Below, piece by piece: positions 13,988 through 45,889 of a DNA stretch of 45,889 bases. A program made the translations under genes and the position numbers. The notes beneath the pieces were generated by a model. The model made no database searches. It was not told where the DNA came from and worked only from the letters and a program-made list of their open reading frames with translations. This DNA is from Acidobacteriota bacterium (GTDB lineage Bacteria > Acidobacteriota > JAAYUB01), in assembly GCA_016935015.1 (NCBI GenBank), contig JAFGRT010000127.1, positions 1 to 45,889 of the forward strand. The letters are read 5' to 3'. Position 1 is the first letter of the stretch, and every line of letters begins with the position of its first letter.

Positions 13988-16595
<2,608 letters not shown>

Positions 16596-16604
16596 AGCCT
16601 CCGG

Positions 16605-16625
16605 CCGGCGGATCCGCCGGATTTC
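16605..16625 (+). terminator. Possible terminator after alaS
   Basis: CCGGCGGATCCGCCGG is a perfect palindrome that folds into a strong stem beginning 10 bp after the alaS stop, followed by ATTTC. The short T-tract makes intrinsic termination plausible but not certain. Confidence 0.45.
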
Positions 16626-16676
16626 TCATCATTCCCGTCCAAGCATGAAACACCCTTTCACGGGGCGAAGGTGGTA

Positions 16677-16734
16677 GTTCGGGTTCGACCTGTCTGCCGA
16701 AGCTCGGACGAGCGAAGGCGGGCGAATCCGGAAC
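16677..16734. repeat. 58-nt imperfect hairpin, REP-like
   Basis: Outer arms GTTCGGGTTCG and CGAATCCGGAAC pair over 11 bp with one bulged base and one G-T pair. An asymmetric bulge leads to CTGCC/GGCGG, then a symmetric GAA/GAA internal loop (able to form sheared G-A pairs) and GCTCG/CGAGC capped by GA. It codes for nothing visible and resembles a repetitive extragenic palindrome, but only one copy is seen in the window. Confidence 0.5.
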
Positions 16735-16821
16735 TCCTCATGGATGAAGATCCAAAGATGAAGGAGCGCCTTCGGGCATAAGGCGGTAGGACCAGTTTTT
16801 GGAAATGTCGCACACCGCTCC

Positions 16822-17150
16822 CCGCCGGGCTTGCCCCGGCGGAAGCGAGGACTGAATGCCAGCGAGGGATTCCTGCAGAATAATGGCACCGCCGGCCTGG
16901 CGCCGGTGGGGCCATGTTATATTTGCAGGTGGTTCCATCGACAGTGAAAGGACGACACCTTTTATGGCAAGGTCCCTTGCATATGACCTTTTCAAAGTTC
17001 GCGATACGTTTCAGGAGAACATCGCTCCACCGGCGCCAGGCCGGTGGTGGCGGTTGCCAGGACGGCCGTTTAACTGGCGGTCAGTCACGGCCCCGCTGGC
17101 ACGAGGCCAGCGGTGGCCGGCAGGTGTGGCCCGCACCGGTCGGGTGCGGG
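16822..17150. repeat. Cluster of five 21-nt hairpins (8-bp stem, 5-nt loop)
   Basis: Five units of the same geometry occur in a gene-free stretch. 16822-16842: arms CCGCCGGG/CCCGGCGG, loop CTTGC. 16889-16909: CCGCCGGC/GCCGGTGG with one G-T pair, loop CTGGC. 17027-17047: CCACCGGC/GCCGGTGG, loop GCCAG. 17093-17113: CCGCTGGC/GCCAGCGG, loop ACGAG. 17130-17150: CCCGCACC/GGTGCGGG, loop GGTCG. The second and third are inverted copies of each other with one difference. Several have extra flanking pairs, for example ATGGC/GCCAT around the second. Spacing is irregular. None is followed by a T-run, so they are not a chain of terminators. A structured RNA or a nest of REP-like elements is possible. Confidence 0.65.
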
Positions 17151-17180
17151 ACCGTTCACCGCGACAAAGCCAAACGGGTT

Positions 17181-17210
17181 TTCATACAGAGGGCAGCCGG
17201 GGTGTATAAT
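17181..17210 (+). promoter_or_regulatory. Promoter of the HD-domain gene
   Basis: A perfect TATAAT (17205-17210) with TTCATA 18 bp upstream (four of six to consensus). The predicted leader is about 58 nt. Confidence 0.5.
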
Positions 17211-17274: not shown

Positions 17275-17736
17275 ATGGACATCGTTTTCACTCTACCAGG
17301 CAAGTCTGAACTGACCCTTCTGGAAAAGGCCCTGCTCCTGGCCCTGCGGGCTCATCTCGGCCGGACCGACAAGGCGGGTCAGCCGTATGTGTTCCACCCC
17401 CTGCGCCTCCTGTTGACCCTGGACACGGAAGAAGAGAAAATGACCGCGCTGCTGCACGACGTGGTGGAGGATTCGGACATCACCCTGGAGGAATTGCGGC
17501 AGGCCGGCATTCCCGAGACGGTGGTGCAGGCCGTGGACGCCCTGACCCGTCGAAAGCCGGAGGAAAGCTACGAAGAGTATATCGAACGCGCCGCCCGGCA
17601 TTCCGTCGCGCGGCGTGTGAAACAGGCTGATCTGCGCGATAACATGGACATCTCCCGCCTGACCGAGCTCACCGCCAGGGACATCCAACGGCTGACCCGG
17701 TACCTGCACGCCTGGCGTTTCCTGCAAAGCGAATGA
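17275..17736 (+). CDS. Small HD-domain phosphohydrolase, RelA/SpoT hydrolase-like
   Basis: A 153-residue stand-alone HD domain resembling the ppGpp-hydrolase half of RelA/SpoT. It has AHLGRTDKAGQPYVFHPLRL, where Rel proteins have AHKGQ...PYISHP, the metal-binding ALLHDVVEDSDIT (HDxxED) and KQADLRDNMDISRL, corresponding to K-ADRLHNM. These supply the metal and alarmone ligands, so hydrolysis of (p)ppGpp or a related nucleotide is plausible as in small alarmone hydrolases; substrate is inference. The ATG follows AAGGAA and has its own promoter, and a strong terminator lies downstream. No synthetase domain is attached or nearby. Confidence 0.82.
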   Translation: MDIVFTLPGKSELTLLEKALLLALRAHLGRTDKAGQPYVFHPLRLLLTLDTEEEKMTALLHDVVEDSDITLEELRQAGIPETVVQAVDALTRRKPEESYEEYIERAARHSVARRVKQADLRDNMDISRLTELTARDIQRLTRYLHAWRFLQSE

Positions 17737-45864: not shown

Positions 45865-45889
45865 GCCGTAGCCCGCGCCGGCCTGGCGC

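Follow-up and report, generated by a model that had tools for sequence, protein, structure and literature searches.

Hairpins between alaS and an HD-domain gene

The window, by which we mean the whole 45,889-nucleotide stretch of Acidobacteriota DNA that was analysed (contig JAFGRT010000127.1 of assembly GCA_016935015.1), contains a gene gap between the end of alaS at 16595 and the start of an HD-domain gene at 17275, and within this gap lies a cluster of hairpins at 16822-17150. The initial annotation had reported five 21-nt hairpins here, each with an 8-bp stem and a 5-nt loop, in a stretch free of genes; four of them pair perfectly, and the other contains one G-T pair. Both the setting and the coordinates were reproduced exactly: the hairpins start at 16822, 16889, 17027, 17093 and 17130, and the G-T pair is found in the one at 16889. 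The comparison with shuffled sequence that the annotation had proposed gave a mean of 0.036 and a maximum of 2 such hairpins in 5,000 dinucleotide shuffles of the interval, none of which reached five; over the whole window, 17 hairpins of this form with at most one G-T pair were counted versus 3 to 11 in 20 window shuffles. A chance cluster of GC-rich palindromes would fit the GC-rich sequence, but it is ruled out by the shuffles together with the 31 homologous places in the genome described below, and we give it practically no weight.

Four of the five hairpins, here called A, B, B' and A', fit CCRCCGGC-RCNAG-GCCGGYGG-TGGC, a few substitutions aside, and form nested inverted pairs in which A' and B' are A and B read on the opposite strand. 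Together with an 11-bp inverted repeat, these hairpins make up an imperfect palindrome of about 300 bp, composed of two arms of about 100 nt and a core of about 105 nt. Along the + strand, to which all coordinates refer, the unit begins with hairpin A (16816-16847; 8-bp stem and 5-nt loop at 16822-16842, outer CGC/GCG) and the inner inverted repeat IRa (GACTGAATGCCAG, 16850-16862), runs through a left spacer of about 20 nt (16863-16882), hairpin B (16883-16915; 8+5+8 at 16889-16909, outer ATGG/CCAT) and the core (16916-17021), and returns through hairpin B' (17023-17052; 8+5+8 at 17027-17047, B inverted), a right spacer of about 20 nt (17053-17073), IRa' (CTGGCGGTCAGTC, 17074-17086) and hairpin A' (17089-17118; 8+5+8 at 17093-17113, outer GGCC/GGCC). 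Beyond the hairpins themselves, IRa pairs over a long range with IRa', and the lower stems are extended. The arms align as inverted copies with a local score of 35 versus a shuffle mean of 10, and none of 1,000 shuffles scored as high. The feet of the four hairpins carry TGGC / CGCT / GGCC-type sequence and no GTAG or CGTC tag. A terminator-like site at 16605-16620, just after alaS, and a promoter-like site at 17181-17210, ahead of the HD gene, each a consensus match only, bracket the element, which therefore probably lies outside both transcripts; at this position it is probably inert.

The fifth hairpin (17126-17150, with its 8+5+8 stem at 17130-17150) abuts this unit and has GTGG at its foot. 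It resembles a dispersed repeat, GTAGCCCGCGCC-TGCCG-GGCGCGGG, which has 16 matches in the same genome at up to two mismatches and no match in five relatives. Among the copies of the element this hairpin has 55% identity, with 84% of cells paired, and it is a distinct REP-like repeat with a GTRG tag, frequently found after A' but outside the conserved element. The flanks of the element are other repeats, and its outer ends are fuzzy.

Several further repeats were observed nearby. Just upstream of the element, at 16674-16740 of the window, lies another inverted repeat, of the CGGGTTCGACCTGTCCTCCG ... GGAGGACGAACCCGG type, which also occurs in the flanks of loci L014, L022, L027 and L131. A palindromic repeat of the form GGAGTGCG-stem-CGCTTTGTTTT is present near many copies (flanks of L010, L011, L016, L017 and L027), and at L021 (G000:C90) CGGCCCCGGCGATCGCTCTTCTGGCCGCCAG is found both just before the element, upstream of 1015, and within its right arm. 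The intergenic regions near copies look like mosaics of such repeats. The window itself ends inside a GTAG-tagged hairpin (45868-45889), and in several contigs this repeat is found some 60-90 bases from the end; it may therefore be where the assembly breaks.

Copies in the genome

The element is dispersed through its own genome (4.75 Mb in 237 contigs). A DNA search with positions 16750-17200 gave 58 matches, and a covariance model based on 13 copies yielded 54, many of them the antisense of the same palindromic copy. When antisense matches and pieces of one copy were merged, with small pieces fetched and each part scored, 31 places remained. This list omits C151:718 and C64:40665, where a GTAG-type hairpin stands alone, and keeps C51, which has hairpin A alone; C51, C104 and C29 are short. 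Of the 31 places, eight reach the end of a contig and 24 are no more than 300 bases from one, where 3% would be expected. The copy count is approximate because of this clustering: in some cases two pieces at contig ends may belong to a single copy, and the assembly may lack other copies altogether. Over matches of at least 260 bases, the longer copies share 70-77% identity with the one in the window, so no recent movement is visible.

We also searched outside this genome. The best alaS relatives come from Acidobacteriota metagenome-assembled genomes (68% to isolate USMO_maxbin.051), and in the alaS loci of four relatives, inspected for an empty site, the HD gene was not found beside alaS. The DNA search left the element unmatched in 19 relatives, and the covariance model found no match in 18 of them; in the remaining genome (G019) it gave one weak match of 26.7 bits (E 5e-4) over only 80 bases, which we judged to be chance. 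The element was likewise not found in five other genomes of the class. The exact 27-base pattern had no occurrence in contigs of 84,980 species or in viral contigs, searches that diverged families would escape, and plasmids and phages gave no match by blastn, which would also miss diverged families. Searches of open-licence papers turned up no description of this element.

Conservation and decay among copies

Thirteen copies could be aligned; A is incomplete in L014 and L026, and the other 11 have all four hairpins. The pairwise identity of the stems is 0.925 for A, 0.887 for B, 0.993 for B' and 0.929 for A', and that of the paired IRa is 0.980, with 10 of its 11 pairs never varying. Identity is low in the core (0.589), the left and right spacers (0.417 and 0.462), the fifth-hairpin region (0.551) and the left flank (0.47). 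The pattern persists when only columns with a G or C consensus are used, which give 0.93-0.99 in the stems versus 0.59 in the core. A 5-nt loop closed by at least seven of the eight Watson-Crick pairs is retained in all 11 complete copies of A and in 13 of 13 copies of B, B' and A'. With stems and inverted repeat 89-99% identical, versus 59% in the core and 42-46% in the spacers, it is the sequence that has been kept and not the geometry alone. The earlier view that the hairpins keep their geometry but not their sequence is thus wrong for four of the five: A, B, B' and A' are variants of a single sequence arranged in inverted order, with stems nearly invariant in the 13 copies.

The open frames are not conserved, the longest one changing frame from copy to copy, which rules out a coding core. 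This is what would be expected of a classical MITE, derived by deletion from an insertion sequence of the double-strand (DDE) kind, in whose long inverted arms the palindromes would be incidental, and the length of about 300 bp, the inverted arms and the dispersal fit it as well; the core might then be the remnant of a lost gene. Against this origin, however, the most conserved parts are the internal hairpins and not the terminal 15-30 bp, the outer ends are fuzzy, as the identity of the left flank reflects, and no parent insertion sequence was found, although the genome-wide search covered the Y1 family only. We therefore regard a classical MITE as unlikely, while granting it a real share of the probability.

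Truncated and recombined copies are common. Internal breakpoints, leaving out those at contig ends, occur at 14 places, 9 of them in hairpins (41% expected, p 0.07), so that their clustering in hairpins is only suggestive. Hairpin B is the most frequent breakpoint, with 6 of the 14 (p 0.003, for a hairpin chosen post hoc). By inspection, the start of B' is fused to the end of A' in L025 and L134, and B is fused to A' in L024. Variants of the left flank and of the spacers, the left spacer included, are alternative sequences common to differing subsets of copies, which suggests that modules have been exchanged between copies.

Genes around the copies

The copies are intergenic: none of 29 tested on fetched contigs with a simple codon-usage gene finder overlaps a predicted gene, and the window copy is intergenic as well. 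Their neighbours differ and include EF-hand, peptidase S46, MacB-like and YchF proteins, methyltransferases and others; no transposase was seen among 20 neighbour proteins scanned, which were chosen from those predicted beside copies. The neighbouring gene ends are 3' ends in 26 of 38 cases (hand tally, p 0.03), and REPs likewise lie near 3' gene ends according to Di Nocera et al. (2013, PMC3733652). At eight loci, among them that of the window copy, a gene was found on each side, and in no case was the gene pair divergent.

Such an excess of 3' ends, the absence of divergent-gene gaps and the retention of the hairpins while the remainder decays would all suit REP/BIME-like sites that are kept locally, with hairpins that would serve as binding sites for a host protein or would shield or terminate the 3' ends of mRNAs, and for which the spread would be ancient and incidental. 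Avoidance of promoters, however, would be no less expected if the element were mobile; truncation and chimerism are frequent among the copies; and the window copy sits between the terminator-like and promoter-like sites. Local retention as host sites is, in our judgement, improbable.

A structured RNA

The initial annotation had also proposed a structured non-coding RNA with covarying stems. Folding of the + strand gave -196.3 kcal/mol, far better than shuffles (z -10.3), and the - strand gave -181.4 kcal/mol (z -7.0). Of 65 base pairs tested, 40 never vary (38 of 57 outside hairpin 5), and changes on both sides were seen in 8 pairs versus 3.5 expected in shuffles. The strand preference of the fold and this excess of covariation are what an RNA made from the + strand by many copies would give, but only five of the eight covarying pairs lie in the four hairpins, the other three being in the fifth. 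Exceptions to pairing in the stems are G-U in 10 cases and A-C in 10, and, given this equality, there is no indication that RNA is read from a single strand. No promoter-like site was found from 16560 to hairpin A. At the gathering score, Rfam matched only two tRNAs in the whole window and left the element unmatched, and seven loci (that of the window copy and six with element copies) had no match up to E 1, which rules out a known RNA family. With its stems kept mostly by sequence identity, the element lends the RNA proposal little support; a strand-specific RNA is not supported, and we consider the RNA reading very unlikely.

Y1 transposases in the genome

A genome-wide transposase search, which covered the Y1 family, returned three Y1_Tnp (Y1/RAYT-type) matches, one of them just below the Pfam cut-off. 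The strongest, on C74, has an open frame and scores 92.9 bits, so this kind of enzyme is present in the genome. On either side of the C74 gene (L029, G000:C74) lie inverted repeats with segments of 52 nt (96%) and 28 nt (86%), about 95 nt in all, at 1299-1394 and 1933-2027; they contain internal palindromes, one of them tagged GTAG. This gene with its repeats has the layout called TIRtron in PMC3733652, where long-TIR Y1 systems are also reported in Acidobacteria. Visual inspection showed non-coding stretches like the C74 repeats in L031 and next to the copy of L018, and at L030 (G000:C124, 1013-2021) a second Y1 match is flanked by repeated GTAGTTCAAGCTTCCAGCTTGAGC hairpins of a different REP-like family.

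The hairpins of the element flank none of the three Y1 matches, where other palindromes are found and the best matches to the hairpin motif have 4 mismatches in 21. Nor do the arms show significant sequence similarity to the C74 inverted repeats: shuffles scored as high in 29-49% of cases in four sense comparisons and in 14% and 46% in two reverse-complement ones. A cognate RAYT among these three matches is thus not supported. A Y1 gene lying between such arms may, however, be missed, because the assembly breaks near the repeats.

Discussion

The nearest of the original proposals was that of clustered REP-like elements whose own transposase lies elsewhere. It holds in that the repeat is dispersed and palindromic and that Y1/RAYT-type matches exist in the genome; it fails in that the hairpins are not single, carry no GTAG or CGTC tag and flank no Y1 gene. 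A REP is a palindrome of 20-40 bp that occurs singly, paired or clustered, with a GTAG (or CGTC) tetranucleotide at one foot, whereas the hairpins of the element were not seen singly and only the abutting fifth one has a tag of this kind, GTGG. When the genome was searched for the hairpin pattern with 0-1 mismatches, all 33 places listed lay inside the ~300-bp element, which rules out a free-standing REP. In REP/REPIN systems the same hairpin flanks the RAYT gene; here it flanks none of the three Y1 matches.

MITEs such as ERIC, NEMIS and Bcr1 are non-coding intergenic sequences of 70-300 bp with inverted repeats. The element resembles them in its size range, lack of coding capacity, inverted repeats, dispersal and intergenic position, but its conserved part is four internal hairpins instead of a short terminal repeat. 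ERIC, NEMIS and Bcr1 are named as MITEs in PMC3733652. The same paper describes TIR repeats of the TIRYT/TIRtron type with long arms, self-complementary tracts and dispersed dimers in Acidobacteria, all of which the element shares; those TIR repeats flank a Y1 gene, whereas no Y1 gene was found flanked by arms of the element. The CGTC-tagged REPs described there are similar in having stems of 8-9 bp, loops of 4-5 nt and no dedicated transposase known, but the element has neither the CGTC tag nor A-T closing pairs and is not free-standing. With REPINs and BIMEs (PLoS Genet 2011, PMC3116915), the inverted pairs of conserved hairpins, the less conserved spacer, the intergenic position and the degenerate single halves are shared features; the element differs from them in having four hairpins in a fixed nested order over about 300 bp, no singlets, no GTAG and about 30 places.

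The reading that we favour, with about even confidence, is that this is a lineage-specific non-autonomous mobile repeat of about 300 bp, of the MITE/TIR-dimer/REPIN-like kind, spread by a trans-acting transposase that recognises the hairpins and that is most likely of the Y1 (HUH) type. An enzyme supplied in trans would have copied the element around the genome by recognising the hairpins, most likely in the form of folded single strands, and would most likely belong to the RAYT/TIRYT group of Y1 enzymes. We take a trans-acting Y1 enzyme as the likeliest driver, since it is the hairpins and not the ends that have been retained, and since the genome contains both enzymes of this kind and long arms bearing hairpins. 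The element is an ordinary kind of genomic repeat, new as a family and well preserved, and not a new kind of RNA.

A more speculative version, which we hold to be doubtful, would make it a new mobile layout, with two hairpins at each end, lacking a GTAG guide and recognised in folded single-stranded form by a Y1-type enzyme; hairpin B would be the point at which left and right halves are swapped, hence the modular copies.

Altogether, these results give a little-studied Acidobacteriota lineage a palindromic repeat family that is well defined. The family is a likely reason for the positions at which this draft genome breaks. It also offers a clean case of hairpin sequence kept amid decay, through which one can test what enzyme disperses hairpin repeats that carry no tag.
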